From Actinoplanes sp. KI2 (lineage in GTDB: Bacteria; Actinomycetota; Actinomycetes; Mycobacteriales; Micromonosporaceae), in NCBI RefSeq assembly GCF_025630775.1, contig NZ_JAOSZE010000010.1, forward strand, positions 124,001 to 188,000: a stretch of 64,000 nucleotides of DNA, written 5' to 3'. The translations under genes and the position numbers were made by a program. Below are positions 6,734 through 22,597 of the stretch, piece after piece. The notes under the pieces were generated by a model. It searched no databases. It worked only from the letters and a program-made list of their open reading frames with translations, and was not told the DNA's origin. Positions within the stretch are counted from its first letter, which is position 1; every line of letters begins with the position of its first letter.

Positions 6734-7105
6734 GTGCTCGACCACGTGGGGTTCCAATGTGCCGACCTGGCCGCGAGCGCGGCCTTCTACGACGCGGTGC
6801 TCGCCCCGCTGGGCGGCAGCCGGCTGATGGACTTCAAGGTCGCCATCGGCTACGGCACGGGCGGCCACGCCGACTTCTGGATCAGCGAGCTCAGCGAGGG
6901 CGACGGCTTCCGCGAGTCGCACATCGCGTTCGCGGCCGCCTCGCGCGCCCAGGTGGACGCGTTCTTCCAGGCGGCCGTGGCGAACGGCGCCGAGGTGCTG
7001 CACGAGCCGCGGATCCACGACGAATACCACGAGAACTACTACGGCGCGTTCGTTCGCGACCCGGACGGCAACAACGTCGAGGCGGTCAGCCACCGTCCCG
7101 AGTAA
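6734..7105 (+). CDS. VOC (glyoxalase/bleomycin resistance) family protein
   Basis: The 123-residue protein is a single VOC module of two beta-alpha-beta-beta-beta repeats. It opens with [22 protein letters not shown] and ends with [15 protein letters not shown], which holds the typical metal-site Glu near the C-terminus. It starts with GTG 3 bp after hom. Its stop codon overlaps a short open frame that leads to thrC, so it is probably co-transcribed with hom and thrC. VOC proteins include lyases, dioxygenases and binding proteins; the substrate cannot be told. Its place inside a threonine operon is unusual. Confidence 0.85.
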
Positions 7106-7164
7106 TGGACTTTCGGTCCCAAGATTCGGTGCCCTGGGGCACCCTGGGTGCCGCCACCCAATAA
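7105..7164 (+). promoter_or_regulatory. Possible leader ORF with competing hairpins before thrC
   Basis: An ATG overlapping the VOC stop (TAATG) opens a 19-codon frame, [19 protein letters not shown], ending 14 bp before thrC. Within it, GGTGCC (7128-7133), GGCACC (7138-7143) and GGTGCC (7147-7152) alternate, so the middle element can pair with either neighbour and gives two mutually exclusive hairpins. This resembles attenuation, but only two Thr codons are present, so amino-acid sensing is not demonstrated. Confidence 0.35.
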
Positions 7165-7178
7165 CGGAGGAGTCGACC

Positions 7179-8228
7179 ATGTATCGGGGATTGATCGAGC
7201 GCTATCGGGACCGCCTGCCGGTCACCGACGCCACCCCGGTGGTCACGCTGCACGAGGGCAACACGCCGCTGGTGCCCGCGCCGGTGCTGTCCCAGCGGGT
7301 CGGCGCCGACGTCTACCTCAAGGTCGAGGGCGCCAACCCGACCGGCTCGTTCAAGGACCGCGGCATGACCATGGCCGTGTCCAAGGCGGTCGAGGACGGC
7401 TCGAAGGCGATCATCTGCGCCTCCACCGGCAACACCAGCGCGTCCGCCGCCGCGTACGCGGCCCGGGCCGGCCTGACCTGCGCCGTGCTCGTCCCGCAGG
7501 GCAAGATCGCGCTGGGCAAGCTGGCCCAGGCGCTCGTGCACGGCGCCAAGCTGCTGCAGGTCAACGGCAACTTCGACGACTGCCTCGCGCTCGCCGCCAA
7601 GCTCTCCCAGGACTTCCCCGTCGCGCTGGTCAACTCGGTGAACATTTTCCGCCTGCACGGGCAGAAGACCGCGTCCTTCGAGATCGTCGAGGCGCTCGGC
7701 GACGCCCCCGACATCCACTGCCTCCCGGTCGGCAACGCCGGCAACATCTCGGCGTACTGGATGGGTTACCTCGAGGACAGCGCGGCCGGCAACGCCACCA
7801 AGCTGCCGAAGATGTACGGCTTCCAGGCCTCCGGCGCCGCCCCGATCGTGAACGGCCAGGTCGTCCCCGAACCGTCGACGATCGCCACCGCGATCCGGAT
7901 CGGCAACCCGGCCAGCTGGACCAAGGCGCTGGACGCCCGGGACGCGTCCGGCGGCCTGATCGAGGCGGTCACCGACCGCGAGATCCTCACGGCGTACCGG
8001 CTGCTCGCCCGCGAGGTCGGCGTCTTCGTCGAGCTGGCGAGCGCGGCCAGCGTGGCCGGCCTGCTGCAGCAGGCCGAGGCGGGCCGGGTGCCGGCCGGCG
8101 CGACCGTGGTCTGCACGGTGACCGGTCACGGCCTCAAGGACCCGGAGTGGGCCATCTCGACCGCGCCGTCCCCGACCACGATCCAGAACGACGTGCTGGT
8201 CGCGGCCCGTGAGCTAGGCCTGGCCTGA
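7179..8228 (+). CDS. thrC: Threonine synthase
   Basis: This PLP fold-type II enzyme converts O-phosphohomoserine to threonine. The 349-residue product has the PLP lysine at K59 ([11 protein letters not shown]), the phosphate-binding loop [18 protein letters not shown] and the motif [15 protein letters not shown]. It is the short, actinobacterial type. The ATG follows a strong Shine-Dalgarno (ACGGAGGAG), so translation can begin independently of the short frame upstream. The 3' end overlaps the convergent MarR gene by 15 bp. The partner kinase gene thrB lies about 5 kb downstream rather than next to it. Confidence 0.97.
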
Positions 8229-8791: not shown

Positions 8792-11700
8792 ATGTCATAC
8801 CTGACCCGGCTCAGTCTCGCCAACCGGGGACTCGTAGCCCTGATCGCGCTGGTGATCTCCGGCTTCGGGATCTTCGCCATCCCTTCGCTCAAGCAGCAGC
8901 TGTTCCCGTCGATCGAGTTCCCCGCCGCGTTCGTCGGCGCGACTCTGCCCGGCGCCAGTCCCGAGCTCATCCAGGACCAGGTCACCGAGCCGATCGAGAA
9001 CGCGGTCAAGGGCGTCGACGGCATCGAGAGCGTCAGCTCGACCACGTCCGAGGGGTCGGCCACGGTCACCGTGACGTTCGACTACGGCACCGACCTCGAC
9101 CAGGCGGTCAACCAGTTGACCACCGCGATCAACCGGATCCAGCCGACCCTGCCGCAGAACGTCGAGCCGCAAATCATCGCGGGCAGCACCGACGACATCC
9201 CGGCGATCGTGCTGGCCGCGTCCGGTGGCGCCGACGAGAGTGACCTGCTCGCGAAGCTCAACCAGACCGTGGTGCCCGAGCTCAACGCGATCGAGGGAGT
9301 CCGGGACACCCAGGTGACCGGCGCCCGCGCCAAGCAGGTCGTCATCACGCCCGACTTCGCGAAGCTCGCCGCGGCCGGGGTCAAACCCCAGTCGATCGCC
9401 ACGGTGCTGCAGGCCAACGGCGTCTCGGTGCCGGCCGGCGCGGTCACCGAGGGGGACAAGTCGCTGAACGTCCAGGTCGGCAACCCGATCACCTCGGTGG
9501 ACGACCTCAAGGGCCTGTACCTCACCGGCAGCAAGGGTCCGGTCAAGCTCGGCGACGTCGCCGCGGTGGAGAGCAAGCTGCCGGCGGCGACCTCGTACAC
9601 CCGGACCGACGGGGTCGACAGCCTCGGCATCCAGGTCACCGCGAAGCCGACCGGGAACCCCGTGCAGATCTCCAAGGAGGTCCGCAGCAAGCTCGACAAG
9701 CTCGAGCAGGACACCGGCGCCAAGCTCACCGTGGTCACCGACCAGGCGCCCTACGTCGAGCGGTCGATCAAGAACCTGACCACCGAGGGCCTGCTCGGCC
9801 TCCTGATGGCCGTCATCGTCATCCTGGTCTTCCTGATGTCGGTGCGCTCGACGCTGGTCACCGCCGTCTCCATCCCGCTGTCCGTGCTGATCGCGCTGAT
9901 CGCGTTGTGGATCGGCGACTACACCCTCAACCTGCTCACCCTGGGCGCGCTGACGATCGCCATCGGCCGTGTCGTCGACGACTCGATCGTCGTGCTGGAA
10001 AACATCAAGAGACATTTGGAGTACGGCGAGGAAAAGGGCCACGCGATCATCACGGCCGTCCGGGAGGTGGCCGGCGCGGTCACCGCCTCGACCCTGACCA
10101 CGGTCGCGGTGTTCCTGCCGATCGCCCTGGTCGGCGGCCTGATCGGGCAGATCTTCTCGTCGTTCGCGATCACCGTCACGGTCGCCCTGCTGGCGTCGCT
10201 GTTCGTGGCGCTCACGGTGATCCCGGTGCTCGCGTACTGGTTCCTCAAGCCACCTCCGCCCGGCTCCGACACCGAGGCCGTCCGCCAGGCTGCCGAGGAG
10301 AAGGAGCGGCGCAACCCGCTGCAGCGCGCCTACCTCCCGGTGATCCGGTTCGCCACCACGCGGCGCTGGATCACGGTAGCCATCGGCGTGGCCGTCCTGA
10401 TCGGCACCCTCTCCCTGGCCCCGTTCCTGAAGACCAACTTCCTCGACCAGTCGGGGCAGGACGCGATCAGGTTCACCCAGGAGCTGCCGGTCGGCACCAG
10501 CCTCGCCGCCACCAATGACGCGGCCAAGCAGGTCGAGGCGGTGCTCGCCGGCGACAAGGACGTGCGGACCTATCAGGTCACCGTCGGCAACGGCACCTTC
10601 AACCCGTTCGTCGGCAGCTCCGGCGCCAGCCAGGCGAGCTACCAGGTCGGGCTCGCCGAGGACGCCGACGCCGAGGTGGTCACCGACAAGCTGCGCGCCA
10701 AGCTCGACTCGATGAGCGGCATCGGCGAGGTGACCTTCGGCGACGCCAACTCCGGCCTGGGCGGCAGCGGGCTCTCGGTCGACGTGCGGGCCGCCGACCA
10801 GGACGTGCTGCAGCAGGCCACCCAGCAGGTGCAGCAGGCGATGGCGTCGACCAAGGGCGTCGCCGACGTGACCACCACGCTGGCGGCCAGCGTCCCGCGC
10901 CTGGACGTCAAGGTGAAGCGCGACGTCGCCGCCCAGTACGGGATCACCGAGGCGCAGATCGCGCAGACCGTGGCCGGCGTCTTCCGGTCGGCCCCGGCCG
11001 GGCAGATCACGGTCGACGGCGCCAGCCAGAACGTGGTCGTGTCCTACGGCACCGCCCCGGCCGACCCGGCCGCGCTGAAGGCCATGCCGGTCGTCACCCC
11101 GCGCGGCGTGGTCCGGCTCGACCAGGTGGCCGACATCAACCAGGTGGCCGGCCCGGAGAAGGTCACCCGGATCGACGGCAACCGCAGCGCCACGGTCAAC
11201 GGCACCGCCACCGGTTCGGACGTCGGCGCCGCCACGAAGGAGCTGAAGAAGAACCTGTCGGCGCTCACCCTGCCGGCCGGCGCCTCGTACACGGTCGGCG
11301 GCGTGAGCCAGGACCAAGCGGACGCCTTCAAGCAGCTGGGTCTCGCCGTGCTGGCGGCCATCGCGATCGTCTTCATCATCATGGTGGCGACGTTCCGCAG
11401 CCTGATCCAGCCGATCATCCTGCTGGTCTCGATCCCGTTCGCGGCGACCGGCGCGATCGTGCTGCTGCTGCTCACCGGCACCGCGCTCGGCGTGCCCTCG
11501 CTGATCGGCGTGCTGATGCTCGTCGGCATCGTGGTCACCAACGCGATCGTGCTGATGGATCTGATCAACCACTACCGGGCGCAGGGCATGGGCGTGCAGG
11601 AGGCGGTGATCGAGGGTGGCCGGCACCGGCTGCGGCCGATCCTGATGACCGCGATCGCGACCATCTTCGCGCTGCTGCCGATGGCGCTCGGCCTCACCGG

Positions 11701-14626: not shown

Positions 14627-16570
14627 TTGAGCGACACCACCGACGTGACGTCGGGTGTTTCTGACGTCGCTGACGGCGCCGGCACCACCGCGACCGCCGC
14701 GAAGCGCCGCCGAGGCGGCACCGGGCTGTCCGCGATGCTGCTGCCCGAGCTGCAGAGCCTCGCCGCTTCTCTCGGCATTTCGGGCACCGCCCGGATGCGC
14801 AAGGGCGAACTGATCACCGCGATTACCGAGCGGCAGAGCGGTGGCGCGTCGGCGGCCGAGGCCGCGCCGCGCCCGCGCGCCAGCGAGGTCGCGACGGCCG
14901 CGCCGATCGCCGAGAAGGCGGCGGCCTCCGCCGCCGCGCCGGTCGTCACCGCGCCGACCGCCGTGCAGCCGGAGTCCGCGCCGGTCGCCGAGGGTGGCAG
15001 CCGTCGCAACCGCGAGCGGGTCCGCCGCGACGCGGCGCCGACCGAGGGCGCGCCCGTCGCCGAGCAGCCGGTGGCTCAGCCCGCCGCGCAGCCGGAGGCC
15101 GGCGAGCGCACCGAGCGCCCGGAGCGGGGCGACCGCAACCGCGACCGGCAGCGCAACCAGGGCCAGCGGGACGGCGGTCAGCGCGACGACCGTAACCAGC
15201 GGGACGACCGTAACCAGCGGGACGATCGCGGCCAGCGGGACGACCGCGGTCCGCGCAACAGTGACCAGAGTCACGACGACGACGACAACGACTCGGGCGA
15301 TGGCGGCCGGCGCAGCCGCCGCAGCCGCTTCCGGGACCGGCGTCGGGGCCGCGACCGGGACGGCGACGGCGGCGGCCAGCGGGACGGTCAGCGCGAGGGC
15401 GGCGGCCGCGAGCCGCACGTCAGCGAGGACGACGTGCTGGTCCCGGTGGCCGGCATCCTCGACGTGCTGGACAACTACGCGTTCGTGCGCACCACCGGCT
15501 ACCTCTCCGGGCCGAACGACGTCTACGTCTCGATGTCCCAGGTCAAGAAGTACGGCCTGCGCCGCGGCGACGCGGTGACCGGTGCCGTGCGGGCCACCCC
15601 GCGCGACGGCGGCAGCGACAACCGGCGGGACAAGTACAACCCGCTGGTCCGGCTGGACACCATCAACGGGATGGAGCCCGAGGAGGCCCGGCGCCGCCCC
15701 GAGTTCTACAAGCTCACCCCGCTCTACCCGCAGGAGCGCCTGCGGCTGGAGACCGAGCCGCACATCCTGACCACCCGGGTCATCGACCTGGTCATGCCGA
15801 TCGGCAAGGGTCAGCGCGCGCTGATCGTCTCGCCGCCGAAGGCCGGTAAGACGATGGTGCTGCAGGCGATCGCCAACGCGATCACCCACAACAACCCCGA
15901 GTGCCACCTGATGGTCGTGCTGGTCGACGAGCGGCCCGAAGAGGTCACCGACATGCAGCGCTCGGTCAAGGGCGAGGTCGTCGCGGCCACGTTCGACCGT
16001 CCGCCGCAGGACCACACCACGGTCGCCGAGCTCGCCATCGAGCGGGCCAAGCGGCTGGTCGAGCTGGGCCACGACGTGGTTGTGCTGCTCGACTCGGTGA
16101 CCCGTCTCGGCCGGTCGTACAACCTGGCCGCGCCGGCCTCCGGCCGGATCATGTCGGGTGGTATCGACTCGACCGCTCTCTACCCACCCAAGCGGTTCCT
16201 GGGCGCGGCGCGCAACATCGAGAACGGTGGCTCGCTCACCATTCTCGCGACCGCGCTGGTCGAGACCGGCTCGATGATGGACACGGTGATCTTCGAGGAG
16301 TTCAAGGGCACGGGTAACGCCGAGCTCAAGCTCGACCGGAAGATCGCGGACAAGCGGGTGTTCCCGGCGATCGACATCGACCCGTCCGGCACGCGCAAGG
16401 AGGAGATCCTGCTCGGCAAGGAGGAGCTGGCGATCATCCACAAGCTGCGCAAGGTGCTGCACTCGCTGGACTCGTCGGCGGCGCTCGACCTGCTGCTCGA
16501 CCGGCTCAAGCAGACCCGCACGAACGTCGAGTTCCTGATGCAGATCGCGAAGTCGACGCCGGGCGAGTAA
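14627..16570 (+). CDS. rho: Transcription termination factor Rho
   Basis: This hexameric RNA-dependent ATPase helicase ends transcripts at C-rich sites. The 647-residue product starts at TTG, preceded by GGAAGGA with 5-base spacing. Domains in order are an N-terminal Rho_N helix bundle (SAMLLPELQSLAASLGISG), an Ala/Pro then Arg/Asp/Gln-rich insert of about 190 residues, the RNA-binding CSD (EDDVLVPVAGILDVLDNYAFVRT), and the RecA-like ATPase with Walker A SPPKAGKT near residue 402 and MVVLVDERPEEVTDM. The large insert is typical of actinobacterial Rho and adds RNA affinity. A strong intrinsic terminator follows. Confidence 0.97.
   Translation: MSDTTDVTSGVSDVADGAGTTATAAKRRRGGTGLSAMLLPELQSLAASLGISGTARMRKGELITAITERQSGGASAAEAAPRPRASEVATAAPIAEKAAASAAAPVVTAPTAVQPESAPVAEGGSRRNRERVRRDAAPTEGAPVAEQPVAQPAAQPEAGERTERPERGDRNRDRQRNQGQRDGGQRDDRNQRDDRNQRDDRGQRDDRGPRNSDQSHDDDDNDSGDGGRRSRRSRFRDRRRGRDRDGDGGGQRDGQREGGGREPHVSEDDVLVPVAGILDVLDNYAFVRTTGYLSGPNDVYVSMSQVKKYGLRRGDAVTGAVRATPRDGGSDNRRDKYNPLVRLDTINGMEPEEARRRPEFYKLTPLYPQERLRLETEPHILTTRVIDLVMPIGKGQRALIVSPPKAGKTMVLQAIANAITHNNPECHLMVVLVDERPEEVTDMQRSVKGEVVAATFDRPPQDHTTVAELAIERAKRLVELGHDVVVLLDSVTRLGRSYNLAAPASGRIMSGGIDSTALYPPKRFLGAARNIENGGSLTILATALVETGSMMDTVIFEEFKGTGNAELKLDRKIADKRVFPAIDIDPSGTRKEEILLGKEELAIIHKLRKVLHSLDSSAALDLLLDRLKQTRTNVEFLMQIAKSTPGE
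15179..15250 (+). repeat. Four 18-bp tandem repeats within rho
   Basis: Units beginning CAGCGSGACGA start at 15179, 15197, 15215 and 15233 and encode QRDDRN or QRDDRG. They form part of the disordered RNA-binding insert of Rho and may vary in number between strains. Confidence 0.85.
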
Positions 16571-16710: not shown

Positions 16711-17880
16711 ATGATCGTGCCCGGGTACCGGGATCAACCGACCGAGCAGTGGGATCCGGTAGCGCCGGTCGATCCCGGCGAGGCCGAGGATTTCCTGCGC
16801 CGCTGTTACCTGGAGAACCCGCGGCTCGGGCCGGTTGAGCCCCGCCTGGCGATCGTCCGCGCGCAGATCGCGGCCACCGGCAGCTACGTGCACACCACCG
16901 AGGAACTCTCGCACGGCGCGAAGATGGCGTGGCGCAACGCGGGCCGCTGCATCGGGCGCCTGTACTGGAAGAGCCTGCTCGTTCTCGACCGGCGCCGGGC
17001 ACGTACCGCCGACGAGATCTTCTCGCTGCTCGTGCGCCACCTGCAGACGGCCGGCGACGGTCAGCTGCGGCCGGTGATCAGCATCTTCGCCGCCGCGCAG
17101 CCGGGCCAGCCGCACGCCCGGGTGTGGAACGAGCAGCTGATCCGCTACGCCGGATATCGCGACGAGGACGGCCGCACGGTCGGCGACGCCCGGCAGATCG
17201 GGTTCACGTCGGCGATGCGCGGGTTCGGCTGGCGGGGCAAGGGCGAGCACTTCGACGTGCTCCCGCTGGCGATCGAGACCCCGGCCGAGGGCGTACGCCT
17301 CTACGACCTCCCCGAGCGGGCGATCCGCGAAGTGCCGATCACCCACCCCGACTACGGCTGGTTCACCGAGCTCGGCCTGCGCTGGCACGCCGTCCCCGCG
17401 ATCTCCAACATGCGGCTCACCATCGGCGGCGTGCACTATCCGCTGGCGCCGTTCAACGGCTGGTACATGGGCACCGAGGTGGGCGCCCGCAACTTCGCCG
17501 ACGCCGACCGGTACGACCTGCTGCCCACGGTCGCCGCCCGGCTGGGCCTGGACACCAGCCGCGAGTCGACGCTGTGGCGCGACCGGGCGCTGGTCGAGCT
17601 GAACCGCGCGGTGCTGTTCAGCTTCGAGCGGGCCGGCGTCAAGATGACCGACCACCACACCGAGTCGGAGCGCTTCCTGACCCACCTGCGCAACGAGGAG
17701 AAGGCCGGCCGCTCGGTCCCGGCCGACTGGACCTGGATCGTCCCGCCGATGTCCGGCTCGCTCACCGGCGTCTTTCACCGCTACTACGAGGAGATGGATC
17801 TCCGCCCCGCGTTCTACCTCGACGACGAGGCGATCTCCCTGGCCCGCGACGGTTCGAGGTGTCCGTATCCCCACCCTTGA
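16711..17880 (+). CDS. nos: Bacterial nitric oxide synthase, oxygenase domain only
   Basis: The protein oxidises L-arginine to citrulline and nitric oxide at a thiolate-bound haem with tetrahydropterin or folate cofactor. The 389-residue product is oxygenase-only, as in other bacteria. The haem ligand is C80 in KMAWRNAGRCIGRLYW; the substrate motif GWYMGTEVGARNF carries W251 and E256. The C-terminal part WTWIVPPMSGSLTGVFH contains cofactor-site tryptophan residues. ATG at 16711 follows GGGAGG. No reductase is encoded nearby, so it would borrow cellular flavodoxin or ferredoxin reductases. Possible roles are oxidative-stress protection or secondary-metabolite nitration; no nitration partner gene is in the window. 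Confidence 0.95.
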   Translation: MIVPGYRDQPTEQWDPVAPVDPGEAEDFLRRCYLENPRLGPVEPRLAIVRAQIAATGSYVHTTEELSHGAKMAWRNAGRCIGRLYWKSLLVLDRRRARTADEIFSLLVRHLQTAGDGQLRPVISIFAAAQPGQPHARVWNEQLIRYAGYRDEDGRTVGDARQIGFTSAMRGFGWRGKGEHFDVLPLAIETPAEGVRLYDLPERAIREVPITHPDYGWFTELGLRWHAVPAISNMRLTIGGVHYPLAPFNGWYMGTEVGARNFADADRYDLLPTVAARLGLDTSRESTLWRDRALVELNRAVLFSFERAGVKMTDHHTESERFLTHLRNEEKAGRSVPADWTWIVPPMSGSLTGVFHRYYEEMDLRPAFYLDDEAISLARDGSRCPYPHP

Positions 17881-18019: not shown

Positions 18020-18409
18020 ATGACTTCGTTCATCTCGCACACGACCGTCGACTGCGCCGACGCGTACACGCTCTCGCGGTGGTGGCAGGGCGTGCTGGAC
18101 TACGTCGAGGATGCCGACGACCCGAACCTGCCGGGGCACGAGGAATGCCTGATCATGTCGCGGGACGGATCGCACAAGGTGCTCTTCATCGACGTGCCGG
18201 ACATCAAACAGGGCAAGAATCGGATCCACTTCGACCTGCGCCCGGCCGAGGGCACCCGGGACGAGGAGTTGGCCCGCCTGATCGACCACGGCGCCAAGCC
18301 GATCGACGACCTCCGGCGCCCGGACGGCACCGGCTGGGTGGTGCTGACCGACCCCGAGGGCAACGAGTTCTGCATCCTCCGCAGCCAGGCCGAAGTTGAG
18401 GCGTCCTAG
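18020..18409 (+). CDS. VOC family protein (glyoxalase-like)
   Basis: The 129-residue product has the glyoxalase-like fold: an opening strand ISHTTVDCADAYTLSRWWQGVLDY, the central motif GKNRIHFDLRP and the C-terminal VVLTDPEGNEFCILR. These resemble the actinobacterial Glyoxalase_6 group. The start is placed at the ATG with the GATCAT box upstream; GTG at 18017 is in frame. It lies alone between nos and the convergent RNA-ligase operon and overlaps the latter's stop codon. The substrate is unknown. Confidence 0.85.
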   Translation: MTSFISHTTVDCADAYTLSRWWQGVLDYVEDADDPNLPGHEECLIMSRDGSHKVLFIDVPDIKQGKNRIHFDLRPAEGTRDEELARLIDHGAKPIDDLRRPDGTGWVVLTDPEGNEFCILRSQAEVEAS

Positions 18410-19023
18410 GCGAACTCGTTGACGGCGAAGTCGTCGCGGTGGCGCCAGGCGTCGTCGGTGCGGACGTGGTCGGCGCGTACCCACTTGAGGAGCTTGTACG
18501 GGAACTCGGCGGCGGGGATGCGGCCGGCCGCGCGCACCACGAAGCCCTCGGAGTTTTCCGTCGTGCGCTGAGCCGCCCAGGCGGCGCGGGCCTCGGAGAG
18601 GCTGCCGCCGCGGTACAGCACCGGCACCACCGGCAGTTCCAGGCGGCGCGCCCAGTCGACCGTGTCGTCCCAGCCCAGCAGCGTGTCGGTCTCGTCCCAG
18701 ATGCCGAAGACGATGAACACGCCGGGGAGGTCGGAGTAGGCGATGCTGCGCCGCGCCCACATCGACTCGCCGCACACCCGCCAGTCGTCCGGGATCCGGT
18801 ATGCGGTCATCGCCCACAGCGCCTTCGCTGGCCGGTCCCACGGCTGCGTGCCGGAGTCGGGGGAGCGGCCGTACATCGCGTCGCGGGTGTAGGTCAGGTT
18901 GCCGCCGTCGAGTTTCTCGGTCACCACCAGCTCGCCGTCCAACCAGGACAGATCGCGCTGAATCTTGTCATCGGCGGATGCGCCGGGCGAGTCGGGCAGG
19001 TGGTGGGTGCGGGGGTACTTCAA
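18406..19023 (-). CDS. Small RNA ligase-like nucleotidyltransferase
   Basis: The 205-residue product contains the core motifs of the ATP-dependent ligase superfamily: motif I KLDGG (K37, AMP-accepting lysine), motif III VCGE (E86), IIIa FIVFGIWDE, motif IV NSEGFVVR and motif V YKLLKWV. There is no C-terminal accessory domain, so it is a minimal adenylyltransferase of the RNA_ligase type rather than a replicative DNA ligase. The TTG start lies 2 bp after the kinase-phosphatase stop, with GGAGGGAGA upstream. It is the third gene of the RNA-repair operon. It could seal nicks that the Rnl1-like enzyme does not; its specificity is unknown. Confidence 0.85.
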   Translation of the reverse strand: MKYPRTHHLPDSPGASADDKIQRDLSWLDGELVVTEKLDGGNLTYTRDAMYGRSPDSGTQPWDRPAKALWAMTAYRIPDDWRVCGESMWARRSIAYSDLPGVFIVFGIWDETDTLLGWDDTVDWARRLELPVVPVLYRGGSLSEARAAWAAQRTTENSEGFVVRAAGRIPAAEFPYKLLKWVRADHVRTDDAWRHRDDFAVNEFA

Positions 19024-19025
19024 GG

Positions 19026-19919
19026 TCAGAAGTCTCCCTCCGCAACCTGGAACACGGTGAGGCCGAGCGCCCGCCACATGCGTACCACCTGCTGGCGGTC
19101 GTCGAAAACCCCGACGATCAGCCAGTTCTCGCGGATCTCCCGGTCGAAGATCTCGCGCTTGACCACGGCGTCCTTGCGGCCGTCGCCCTCGGGCCGCATG
19201 AACAACGCCTGGTACGGGACGCCGACGTACAGATCGAGCCACGCCTCGGTCTCCGGCCGGCACACCGCGTCCCGCCCGGAGCAGAAGATGATCGCGTTTC
19301 CGGCCGCGTGCATGGCCTGAACCGCGGTGATCACCGCCGGGTTGGGCAGGTCCGAGCCGACCCGGTGCCAGTCGTACGGCGACCGGTCGCCCATCAGCGC
19401 CACCGTCCCGTCGATGTCCACGAGAACGGCCGCCGGCAGCGACGGGTCCGGCTCGTAGACATTGGCCGAGATCTCGGAGACGTACGGGACGGGCAGCGGC
19501 AGATTGCGGCCCGCCAGGTAGCGAGCATGCATCCGCCGGATCGCCTCCTCGCCGACCCGGTCCGACTCCGGCCGCGACACGTCCCGCCGGATGCACTCCT
19601 CCAGCGGCACGTCGGTGAAGTCGTGCACCTCGAACTGCGCGCCGTGCCGGGCGGCCAGCTCGGCCCACTCCCGGACGGTCTTGTTGCGCAGGTTGGTGTC
19701 GTCCACGATCACGTCGGCGTGCGCCCGCAGCAGCGCCTCGACGGTGGCCCGCTGGGCGTGCGTGACCTGCCCCTCGGCCCACTGCGTGTAGAGCCGCTCG
19801 CCGTGCAGCATCCGCCGCAGGTCGTCCCGGTTGACCCGGACCACCCGGGGTTGCAGCTTCCGGGCGAACGTCGTCTTCCCGGACGCCGGCAGCCCGCGGG
19901 TGATCAGCAGTCTCGTCAT
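19026..19919 (-). CDS. pnkp: T4 Pnkp-like polynucleotide kinase / 3'-phosphatase
   Basis: This end-healing enzyme is predicted to phosphorylate 5'-OH RNA ends and remove 3'- or 2',3'-cyclic phosphates. The 297-residue product (phage T4 Pnkp: 301) has an N-terminal kinase with P-loop GLPASGKTT (residues 9-17), NRDD (30-33) and DDTNLR (73-78). The C-terminal HAD phosphatase has DIDGT (D168, D170), SGRD and KREIF. The ending FDDRQQVVRMWRALGL...QVAEGDF is strikingly like the T4 enzyme's C-terminus. ATG overlaps the stop of the upstream ligase by 4 bp (ATGA). It prepares ends for the ligases on either side. Confidence 0.93.
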   Translation of the reverse strand: MTRLLITRGLPASGKTTFARKLQPRVVRVNRDDLRRMLHGERLYTQWAEGQVTHAQRATVEALLRAHADVIVDDTNLRNKTVREWAELAARHGAQFEVHDFTDVPLEECIRRDVSRPESDRVGEEAIRRMHARYLAGRNLPLPVPYVSEISANVYEPDPSLPAAVLVDIDGTVALMGDRSPYDWHRVGSDLPNPAVITAVQAMHAAGNAIIFCSGRDAVCRPETEAWLDLYVGVPYQALFMRPEGDGRKDAVVKREIFDREIRENWLIVGVFDDRQQVVRMWRALGLTVFQVAEGDF

Positions 19920-20992
19920 TCCTCGGTCACCTTGGTCCCGTGCATGGTCTGGTCGGCCGCCGGGCGGGCGTGCTGCCACAGGACCGGACGGTAGTCCTTG
20001 CCGTCGAGCCGCAGGAACAGCGCGAACTTGTGCTCGCTGCGCACCGCCCGGGCGGCGAACTCCTTGCGGCCCCAGCCCTCGGGCAGACCGGCGACGATCG
20101 CCGCGTAGGCCGCCTCGATCGCGGCGGCGCGCGCGTCGACCGTCGCGGTGAGCTCGGCGGCGATCGCGCGCACCCAGACGTGGAACTCGTCGGGCAGCGG
20201 CGCGATGAGCGTGTCCAGGTCGCCGCCGTTGGCCAGGACCTCCCATACCGTACGCGCGGTGAGCCCCGTGACGAGCCGGTGGAGCCGTACGTAGTCGGCG
20301 TACTTGATCTTCACCCGCGCGTCCGCCCCGGTGAAGTGGACGACCAGGCCCTCCCGGCCGTCCCGGGGCGGCGCGGCGAGCGCTTCGGCGAACGTCGCGT
20401 ACCCGAAGGTCTCCACCACCGGCCCGGGCCAGTCCGGCACCGCCTCCGGCCCGTACGTGCGGCCGGTCGCGATGTCCACGGCGCCGAGCAGCACGAGGTC
20501 GTCCAGGCCCTGGTAGTCGACCACGATCCGGTTCCCCGGGTAGATGATCTCGACCAGCACGGTGAGCCCGGCCGGCGGGGCGAACCCGGCATATCGGGCA
20601 CGCAGCAGGGCGGTGGCGTGCAGCGCCTGGTCGGAGGCGAACGAGCCCCGGGTGGCCACCGCGAGGCCGTCGCCGTCGTGGTAGATGATCCCGAGCGACC
20701 CGTCCGACTTGTCCGTCACGGTGACCGCGGCGGCCGGGTCGAAGCTCGGCGCGTGCGACTCCGAGTGGTTGAAGAACTTGGTGAACGGCCGCGCGACGAT
20801 CTTGCCGCCGGCGTCGACGACCAGGCCGCGGCAGGCGAGCGTCACCGGGGTCCAGGCCCCGGCGTACTGGCACGCCTCGGTGTAGTTGTAGATCACGAAG
20901 GGCCGCGAGGGGTGACGCTGCGTGCGCACCAGGCCTTTTTCGACCGCGGAAGCCAGTTCGGCCGGATCGAGGACGTCGGCGAGCAGCGTCAT
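19916..20992 (-). CDS. rnl: T4 Rnl1-like RNA ligase
   Basis: This ATP-dependent ligase joins 3'-OH to 5'-phosphate RNA ends. The 358-residue product has RPFTKFFNHSE before motif I, as in T4 Rnl1, then KSDGSLG with nucleophile K95, motif Ia TRGSF, motif III VLVEII (E148), motif IV EGLVVHF and motif V VKIKYADYV. A helical C-terminal domain of about 110 residues follows; in T4 this part recognises tRNA. It is the first gene of a three-gene operon with the Pnkp-like enzyme, the pair phage T4 uses to repair cut tRNA. The ribosome binding site AGGAAAGG lies inside one arm of an 11-bp inverted repeat. Confidence 0.93.
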   Translation of the reverse strand: MTLLADVLDPAELASAVEKGLVRTQRHPSRPFVIYNYTEACQYAGAWTPVTLACRGLVVDAGGKIVARPFTKFFNHSESHAPSFDPAAAVTVTDKSDGSLGIIYHDGDGLAVATRGSFASDQALHATALLRARYAGFAPPAGLTVLVEIIYPGNRIVVDYQGLDDLVLLGAVDIATGRTYGPEAVPDWPGPVVETFGYATFAEALAAPPRDGREGLVVHFTGADARVKIKYADYVRLHRLVTGLTARTVWEVLANGGDLDTLIAPLPDEFHVWVRAIAAELTATVDARAAAIEAAYAAIVAGLPEGWGRKEFAARAVRSEHKFALFLRLDGKDYRPVLWQHARPAADQTMHGTKVTEE

Positions 20993-21062: not shown

Positions 21063-21214
21063 TCGCGTCGATTTCTCGCGCGGCCGTGTCACATGGCAGA
21101 CTGGTCCATCGGCCAGTAAAAGGTTCCGGTTCACGCCCGAGCCCACCGCCCTGGCGGGGCGGCGCGGTGCTGACAGCGACCCGGCGACCAGATCATCGAA
21201 AGGGACCGAGAGAC

Positions 21215-21439
21215 ATGAAGTCCGGCATCCACCCGGAGTACACGACCACCGAGGTCATCTGCTCCTGCGGCAGCACCTTCACCACCCGCAGCACCGCCAA
21301 GGGCGGCGAGATCCGCGTCGAGACCTGCAGCGCCTGCCACCCGTTCTACACCGGCAAGCAGCGCGTTCTGGACACCGCCGGCCGGGTCGCGAAGTTCCAG
21401 GCCAAGTACGCCAAGGTGAACGCGGCCAAGAAGAAGTAA
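21215..21439 (+). CDS. rpmE: 50S ribosomal protein L31 (zinc-binding form)
   Basis: The 74-residue ribosomal protein holds a zinc ion through C16-x-C18 (VICSCG) and C38-x2-C41 (CSACHPF), so it is the C+ paralog rather than the zinc-free YkgM type. The C-terminal part is Lys-rich (AKVNAAKKK). ATG at 21215 is preceded by a purine-rich stretch (GAAAGGGACCGAGAG). The gene is divergent from the RNA-repair operon and lies upstream of prfA, the conserved rho-rpmE-prfA order interrupted here by the accessory genes. Confidence 0.97.
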
Positions 21440-21505: not shown

Positions 21506-22597
21506 GTGAGTAACGACCGGCTGACCACGCTTCTCGAGGAGTACGCGGAACTGGAGAAGCGGATGGAGGACCCCTCCATCCACGCCGACCAGGCCCTCGT
21601 ACGCCGGGTCGGCCGTCGCTTCGCCGAGCTGGCCCCGATCTACGCGGCCAACGCCGAGCTGGAGGCCGCGCGCGCCGACCTGGTCGCCGCCAAGGAGCTG
21701 GCCGCCGAGGACCCGGCGTTCGGCGCCGAGGTGGAGGCCGTGGCCGCCACGCTGCCGCCGCTCGAGGAGAGACTCGGCGAGATGCTGATCCCGCGCGACC
21801 CGAACGACGCCAAGGACGTGATCATCGAGATCAAGGCGGGCGAGGGCGGCCAGGAGTCGGCCCTGTTCGCCGGCGATCTGCTGCGCATGTACACCCGGTA
21901 CGCGGAGCGCCGCGGCTGGGTGGTCGAGGTGATCGACTCGCAGGAGTCGGACCTCGGCGGCGTCAAGGACATCTCGGTGGCGGTCAAGACCAAGGGCGTG
22001 CCCGAGGGCGGCCACGGCGTCTGGTCGCGGCTCAAGTGGGAGGGTGGCGTGCACCGGGTGCAGCGCGTCCCGGTCACCGAGTCGCAGGGCCGGATCCACA
22101 CCTCGGCGGCGGGCGTGCTGGTGCTGCCCGAGGCCGAGGACGTCGACGTGCAGATCGACCCGAACGACCTGCGGATCGACGTGTTTCGCTCGTCCGGCCC
22201 GGGCGGCCAGTCGGTCAACACCACCGACTCGGCGGTGCGGATCACCCACCTGCCCACCGGCACCGTGGTGAGCTGCCAGAACGAGAAGAGCCAGCTGCAG
22301 AACAAGGAATCGGCGCTGCGCATCCTGCGGTCCCGGCTGCTGGCCATCGCGCAGGAGGAGGCGGCCGCCGCGGCCGCCGACTCGCGCAAGGCGCAGGTGC
22401 GGACGGTGGACCGCTCGGAGCGGATCCGGACGTACAACTTCCCGCAGAACCGGATCACGGACCACCGGATCGGCTACACCGCCTACAACCTCGACCTGGC
22501 GCTCGGCGGCGAGCTGGACGGGGTGCTGGACGCGCTGGCCGAGGCCGACCGGCAGGCCCGCCTGTCCGGCGAGACGGAGCTGAGCCGCCGGGCCTAA
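21506..22597 (+). CDS. prfA: Peptide chain release factor 1
   Basis: RF1 releases finished peptides at UAA and UAG codons. The 363-residue product contains the codon-reading PVT tripeptide ([10 protein letters not shown]) and the catalytic GGQ ([17 protein letters not shown]), whose Gln is methylated by PrmC, encoded at 26775. The GTG start follows GGGGAGA. The C-terminus overlaps the stop of the convergent beta-propeller gene by 3 bp. Length and motifs are normal. Confidence 0.97.

Follow-up and report, generated by a model that had tools for sequence, protein, structure and literature searches.

In the 64,000-nucleotide (nt) stretch of Actinoplanes sp. KI2 DNA analysed here (the window), three genes, rnl1, pnkp and lig2, probably form a chromosomal RNA-repair operon in which Pnkp would heal the ends of broken RNA and Rnl1 and Lig2 would seal them, the Rnl1-Pnkp pair being old and vertically inherited. 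That the cassette repairs cleaved RNA is well supported, and breaks in the anticodon loop of tRNA are, we infer, its most likely substrate. The genes run head to tail in one direction over 20992-18406 of the minus strand; the rnl1 stop codon and the pnkp ATG overlap by 4 bases, and the TTG start of lig2 lies 2 bases past the pnkp stop. The genes would presumably be co-transcribed. This arrangement bears out an earlier account made from the letters alone (the sequence-only reading), which had described three co-oriented, tightly packed genes. Profile searches place all three proteins in the families it had claimed, and the gene order, when checked, proved to be kept in related genomes. The three-gene observation is real, and chance is ruled out.

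Enzymes encoded by the cassette

Rnl1 is a T4 Rnl1-type RNA ligase (PF09511), as had been proposed from its RPFTKFFN and KSDGSLG stretches and K95. It matches PF09511 at 1.5e-10 (41.7 bits, above the Pfam cut-off of 28.3), phrog_562 at 2.2e-69 (the profile spanning residues 16-342) and the T4 Rnl1 structure 2c5u at 7.1e-13. RPFTKFFN begins at residue 68, K95 within DKSDGSLG is the predicted nucleotidyl lysine of motif I (KSDG), and motifs IV (EGLVV) and V (KIK) are both found. Against NCBIfam TIGR02308, the T4 RnlA equivalog, it scores 61.4 bits, below the cut-off of 242.25; Rnl1 shares the superfamily and fold of the T4 enzyme yet lies outside the T4 equivalog class.

Pnkp has the build of T4 Pnkp, an N-terminal P-loop kinase followed by a C-terminal HAD phosphatase, with matches to HAD_PNKP (2.8e-55), AAA_33 (4.4e-25) and phrog_505 (8.7e-99). 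The best match in the PDB is 4xrp (2.1e-44), and T4 Pnkp itself (1ltq) is matched at 2.3e-40, residues 1-297 aligning to its residues 1-301. The P-loop, VNRDD, DIDGT, SGRD and DDR motifs, which we take, also from the 1ltq alignment, to be the active-site motifs of T4 Pnkp, are all carried; the motifs and the alignment uphold the claim that both active sites of a T4 Pnkp-like kinase/phosphatase are present.

The second ligase of 205 residues that had been claimed is likewise borne out by a match of Lig2 to PF09414 (2.5e-25). Its motifs are I (K37xDG), III (G85E86), IV (E159G) and V (K180), the last being presumably the counterpart of one or other of K225 and K227, which we take to be the motif V lysines of T4 Rnl2. 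The predicted fold is the catalytic domain of T4 Rnl2, the C-terminal domain being absent: residues 1-186 of the model align with 3-231 of chain 2hvr_A (319 residues), whose C-terminal part is unmatched, with 17-18% identity to T4 Rnl2 across the superposition. The fold resembles DNA ligases too, mostly more weakly. Judged by its PF09414 nucleotidyltransferase domain and modelled fold, Lig2 is an Rnl2-type RNA ligase, although not a full-length one: it is a minimal Rnl2-type catalytic domain, ending where the catalytic domain of T4 RNA ligase 2 ends, and that enzyme and its truncated form are among the nearest known systems. Sequence and profile searches of the PDB found no solved structure related to Lig2 by sequence; the sequence search reached carboxysome proteins with E values no better than 0.65, none credible, and the profile search returned 28 sequences at E 0.009 or worse, 27 of them of fatty-acid-binding type, which were taken as chance.

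Table 1. Cassette genes and bordering features of the window, and further Rnl1-Pnkp copies in relatives (locus coordinates)
Feature	Coordinates	Strand	Description
rnl1	20992-19916	minus	358 amino acids (aa), T4 Rnl1-type ATP-dependent RNA ligase
pnkp	19919-19026	minus	297 aa, T4 Pnkp-type 5'-kinase/3'-phosphatase
lig2	19023-18406	minus	205 aa, TTG start, minimal Rnl2-type RNA ligase domain (predicted)
rho	14627-16570	plus	Rho_RNA_bind 7.7e-26; left border of slot, outside cassette
NO-synthase-oxygenase gene	16711-17880		PF02898 2.5e-147; borders cassette
L31-Actinobacteria ribosomal protein leader (L31 leader)	21120-21189		RF03158; upstream of rpmE
rpmE	21215-21439	plus	ribosomal protein L31, Ribosomal_L31 6.9e-32; right border, divergent
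prfA	21506-22597	plus	release factor 1 type, PCRF 3.6e-62, RF-1 1.1e-43; right border
Rnl1-Pnkp copy with RlaP, L203	7493-10443		
Rnl1-Pnkp copy with RlaP, L204	8068-11043		
Rnl1-Pnkp copy with RlaP, L213	376-3127		

The Rnl1-Pnkp pair in the Micromonosporaceae

The Rnl1-Pnkp pair is a trait of the host family, the Micromonosporaceae, in a fixed place, and is rare elsewhere in the samples. Among 150 family genomes from 44 genera, the sample within which Pnkp was searched, Rnl1 is present in 55 genomes and 15 genera, and at all 56 Rnl1 places in these 55 genomes a Pnkp gene follows on the same strand within 2 kb downstream (57 rows reduce to 56 places, since a second fragment row of G201 belongs to the same gene). 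The slot was read in 20 chosen stretches of 17-19 kb, 12 of which hold the pair (10 genera): prfA stands on the Rnl1 side in 12 of 12 and rho on the other side in 11 of 12. The same rho/prfA slot is seen in L214, and Pnkp without Rnl1 occupies it in L096, L109-L111, L205 and L207-L212, the Pnkp of L110 and L111 having been missed by a simple gene caller and placed by tblastn. As to whether Pnkp-only genomes may use another ligase, PF09414 matches, mostly weak, occur in 22 of 24 of them, and three Actinoplanes-group genomes also searched all matched. Beyond the family, Rnl1 was scored for up to eight candidates per genome in an order sample (249 genomes) and for up to five in a phylum sample (346 genomes), limits under which weak relatives may escape notice; outside the family the former gave one clear match (G069) and two marginal ones, and the latter gave Rnl1 in two genomes, G610 and G445, of one other genus.

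The neighbours of the cassette (rho, the NO-synthase-oxygenase gene, rpmE and prfA) are ordinary core chromosome. The first two, together with a glyoxalase-like gene, flank it on one side, and divergent rpmE-prfA on the other. Its guanine-plus-cytosine (GC) content is 0.71-0.72, and that of the NO-synthase-oxygenase gene, prfA and rho is likewise 0.71-0.72. The RF03158 L31 leader falls within the intergenic region common to rpmE and rnl1, and in L099 (genus g56) a LAGLIDADG-type gene (10724-11467) lies between rpmE and Rnl1.

Addition of lig2 and erosion of the cassette

Within the cassette, lig2 is a lineage-specific addition to the older pair, and it is the gene retained longest in the Actinoplanes group. 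In a genus sample covering part of the genus's species, all 60 Actinoplanes genomes carried lig2 (in two pieces in G013 and G031); as a cassette member it was found only in Actinoplanes in the broad sense and in one other sampled genus (G127, with all three genes at the slot). Genera g38 and g64 (L101, L103) carry a 67-69% identical lig2 away from the pair, and in g59 a 47% identical relative is fused to an AAA_33 kinase; after it, in the same stretch (L105, 8311-13109), comes a protein of 982 aa that combines domains of the MJ1316, endonuclease/exonuclease/phosphatase, 2'-5' RNA ligase and poly(A) polymerase kinds.

Erosion of the cassette was followed in 47 named loci, which were found via lig2, so that species without lig2 cannot appear among them. 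Both rpmE and prfA stand beside lig2 at all 47, rho is on the other side at 45, and the NO-synthase-oxygenase gene is at the slot in 43. Rnl1 is present in 30 and missing from 17; the latter comprise eight loci with full Pnkp, one with an internally deleted Pnkp, four with a kinase-sized frame only (the P-loop and VNRDD retained in all four) and four with a 51-residue remnant or no Pnkp. In the larger comparison that gave 66 distinct lig2 sequences (below), Rnl1 stands solely beside full Pnkp (47 of 47). Losses from the cassette are mostly nested, Rnl1 going first, the Pnkp phosphatase second and K180 of lig2 motif V last. In L149, Rnl1 is shortened and an IS605/TnpB-type gene (6820-7890) splits Pnkp from lig2.

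Proposed mechanism and purpose

In the accessible text of PMC4411300, the T4 Pnkp/Rnl1 chemistry is one in which Pnkp treats both ends of a break and the ligase joins them. By analogy, the Pnkp of the cassette would heal the RNA ends that transesterifying RNases produce: the kinase would phosphorylate the 5'-OH, and the phosphatase would strip off the 3'-phosphate or 2',3'-cyclic phosphate. The Rnl1-type ligase would then seal the healed break via ligase-AMP and then an adenylated RNA (AppRNA) intermediate. A hint from outside the cassette comes from RlaP (PF10127), a nucleotidyltransferase functioning alongside RNA ligases according to the accessible text of PMC7824862, which in both tested genomes of genus g66 (L107, L214) stands between Rnl1 and Pnkp in the usual slot. 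It also lies beside further Rnl1-Pnkp copies in L203, L204 and L213; the first two are among many small mobile-type genes, in L204 with a phage integrase, and the third is on a short contig. Because RlaP accompanies homologous Rnl1-Pnkp pairs, its association is the best independent hint, and suggests, that the pair acts on RNA. RNA-repair systems containing RlaP were reportedly described by Burroughs and Aravind in 2016; the likeness is that homologous pairs in other genera carry RlaP, and the difference that the window cassette does not. On a Rhizobium plasmid (L198, 2950-6783), an Rnl1-type ligase adjoins rtcR and a gene annotated as an RNA-binding protein.

Several observations weigh against reading the cassette as an old RNA-repair operon directed at tRNA. 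Full-length-type Pnkp is encoded in 81 family genomes, 26 of which lack Rnl1, the L203 and L204 copies and the Pnkp of L206 sit outside the slot, and outside the family Pnkp adjoins Rnl1 in G069 (same order) and in G610 and G445 (same class). The deep branches of the Rnl1 tree (phage, plasmid and other bacteria) are without resolution, and the phage origin proposed below is drawn from similarity and gene order only. VIA-align superposes Rnl1 on T4 Rnl1 over residues 3-236 only; the C-terminal domain of Rnl1-type ligases is linked to tRNA specificity. RtcB, another RNA ligase, is encoded in 14 of 14 genomes searched and may meet part of the repair need. Searches of 12 genomes, the present one among them, found AAA_13 (PrrC/RloC-type) in none, Colicin_D occurs in one of 14 and not in this one, and the locus has no linked gene for a nuclease or toxin.

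The AAA_13 result led to the rejection of a link to a PrrC/RloC nuclease. The search of the genome for nuclease or toxin genes did yield one EndoU-type RNase domain (contig C136:73812-74201; such domains occur in 3 of 14 genomes), so that a toxin source within the genome is possible, with no linkage to the cassette. The sequence-only reading had taken end healing combined with two sealers to indicate a dedicated defence against RNA-cleaving toxins or phage-triggered nucleases. The first half of that interpretation stands, given a tight, conserved unit and RlaP near its relatives. The defence half is not supported: at E 0.01 the PADLOC models gave 0 families for each of the three proteins, AAA_13 was not found in the 12 genomes, the slot belongs to the core chromosome and the Rnl1 tree is species-like. 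Defence may still be the purpose. Housekeeping or developmental maintenance of RNA, in which for example tRNA halves formed in stress, sporulation or germination would be rejoined, would use the same enzymology to a different end. Such a maintenance role, not defence, is possible, if somewhat doubtful; it agrees with the core-chromosome location, the vertical inheritance and the lack of a PADLOC match, and developmental tRNA cleavage occurs in Streptomyces, whereas repeated loss and erosion in many species would be unusual for an essential housekeeping role and fit a conditional trait better.

Possible coupling of Lig2 with Pnkp

Comparison across species suggests that Lig2 and Pnkp work together. 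Of 75 aligned rows, 65 have K180, a count that includes four exception rows added deliberately for lacking it; all 10 exceptions are 70-83% identical to the window lig2, and relatives at 40-50% identity retain the lysine. In the tree set of 49 loci, 39 of 40 with full Pnkp retain K180 versus 1 of 9 without, and among the 66 distinct lig2 sequences obtained from 116 loci the figures are 54 of 55 versus 2 of 11; the counter-examples are L126 and L228, which hold K180 without full Pnkp, and L156, which lost it beside full Pnkp. The median ratio of nonsynonymous to synonymous substitution rates (dN/dS) of lig2 is 0.146 where all three genes are present (10 of 30 such loci), 0.182 with Pnkp and lig2 (all 8), 0.353 in kinase-only loci (4) and 0.32 where lig2 is alone or beside a remnant (4), and that of the kinase segment is 0.191, 0.337 and 0.409 in the first three classes. 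A kinship-corrected test found three independent pairs on supported branches and five on all branches, none opposite, and because these are too few for significance, the sign test requiring at least six, the association between Pnkp and K180 is only suggestive. We read the cassette as one functional unit that would erode in the order Rnl1, phosphatase, lig2 active site.

It is rather unlikely that lig2 is instead an independent gene, in the slot by chance and not working with Pnkp. The small number of independent pairs, the exceptions to the K180 rule on either side (2 of 11 and 1 of 55), the lig2 genes away from the pair in g38 and g64 and the persistence of lig2 without any Pnkp in L155, L160, L161 and L228 all speak for independence; against it, 43 of the 47 named loci have a whole or partial Pnkp upstream of lig2 in the same orientation, usually in contact with it, and motif V loss and raised dN/dS accompany Pnkp loss with no opposite pair.

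If Lig2 does work with Pnkp, it would be a second sealer fed by the same healer, probably for a differently structured break. Several ligases in one phage have been argued, in the accessible text of PMC7824862, to mean several kinds of break, and two sealers fed by one healer would suggest two kinds of break here. Since truncated T4 Rnl2 requires pre-adenylated donors (accessible text of PMC3388297), a relay from Rnl1 to Lig2 is also conceivable. It is speculative, and we think improbable, that Lig2 is a Pnkp-dependent, catalytic-domain-only sealer dividing labour with Rnl1, either by taking Rnl1-refractory breaks or by finishing Rnl1-adenylated ends. Were it so, species without Pnkp and the motif V lysine would be natural counterparts of motif V mutants made in the laboratory, T4 Rnl2tr K227Q being one, and a Lig2 lacking both Pnkp and K180 would be heading toward a pseudo-ligase or an AppRNA-only sealer.

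Origin and less probable alternatives

The family Rnl1 sequences form one group (not starred, support 82/98). Branching within it is similar to that of the prfA-rho tree, taken as the species tree; the Pnkp tree is mostly unresolved. The closest phage Rnl1 proteins are those of the Arthrobacter phages Bauer (54.1% identity) and Seahorse (52.6%); for Pnkp the identity is 47.0%. These pairs differ from the Actinoplanes cassette in being phage-borne, and their records are not among the 32 phage records with lig2 matches; they share with it the gene order and the 4-base overlap, and for this reason a phage-like source of Rnl1-Pnkp appears likely. Viral contigs gave one Rnl1 relative (L169, 41%) and no lig2 by exact back-translated peptides, which detect close relatives only. 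The 32 phage records hold lig2 relatives or pieces at 28-47% identity, and all exceed 200 kb except Halogranum virus. In the history we propose, an ancestor inside the family or at its root would have acquired the pair, probably from one like that of actinophages; the pair would then have settled in the slot bounded by rho and rpmE-prfA and passed on by vertical descent, being lost many times, with lig2 recruited later in the Actinoplanes lineage.

Recent horizontal capture was rejected as an origin on the strength of the fixed slot and the Rnl1 tree. A recent counter-defence capture from phage, in a prophage or mobile element and without a settled host function, is very improbable even though actinophages carry the same pair and relatives hold extra copies amid mobile-type genes (L203, and L204 with its integrase). 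Conservation of the slot, fixed in many genera and holding lig2 at 47 of 47 named loci, largely refutes it, and the Rnl1 branching, much like the species tree, and a base composition like that of the neighbours also stand against it. Repair of DNA ends is likewise very improbable, although DNA too is a substrate of Pnkp-type enzymes, nicks in DNA could be sealed by the ligases, and the Lig2 fold matches DNA ligases as well, mostly more weakly.

Relation to known systems and significance

The enzyme families and the Rnl1-Pnkp pair are already known. From T4 tRNA repair by Pnkp and Rnl1, the RNA-repair operon proposed here differs in that its genes are chromosomal, widespread in one family, adjacent and overlapping, in having a third gene, a further ligase, in one lineage, and in the absence of AAA_13 (PrrC-type) from the 12 genomes searched. 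The Pnkp1-Rnl-Hen1 system of Capnocytophaga gingivalis, as presented in the accessible text of PMC4411300, resembles it in that a T4 Pnkp-like Pnkp1 (the source of 4xrp) shares an operon with a ligase encoded separately; Hen1 is not among the three cassette genes, and the Capnocytophaga ligase is not among the structure matches of Rnl1 or Lig2. No description of the three-gene cassette was found in the accessible text of the literature searched, including PMC4411300, PMC7824862, PMC5513430, PMC6514570, PMC4052509 and PMC3388297, nor was one seen there of the family-wide slot, the lineage-specific Rnl2-type partner or its co-erosion with Pnkp, and earlier mentions may exist.

The classic example of RNA repair is T4 Pnkp with Rnl1, by which the phage counters cleavage of tRNA in its host. 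The presence of such a pair as an old chromosomal feature, passed down vertically in one slot of a bacterial family, makes a cellular role testable by deletion in culturable species, and the gradation in nature from all three genes down to one, K180 being lost along with Pnkp, offers a comparison for why cells hold two sealers.

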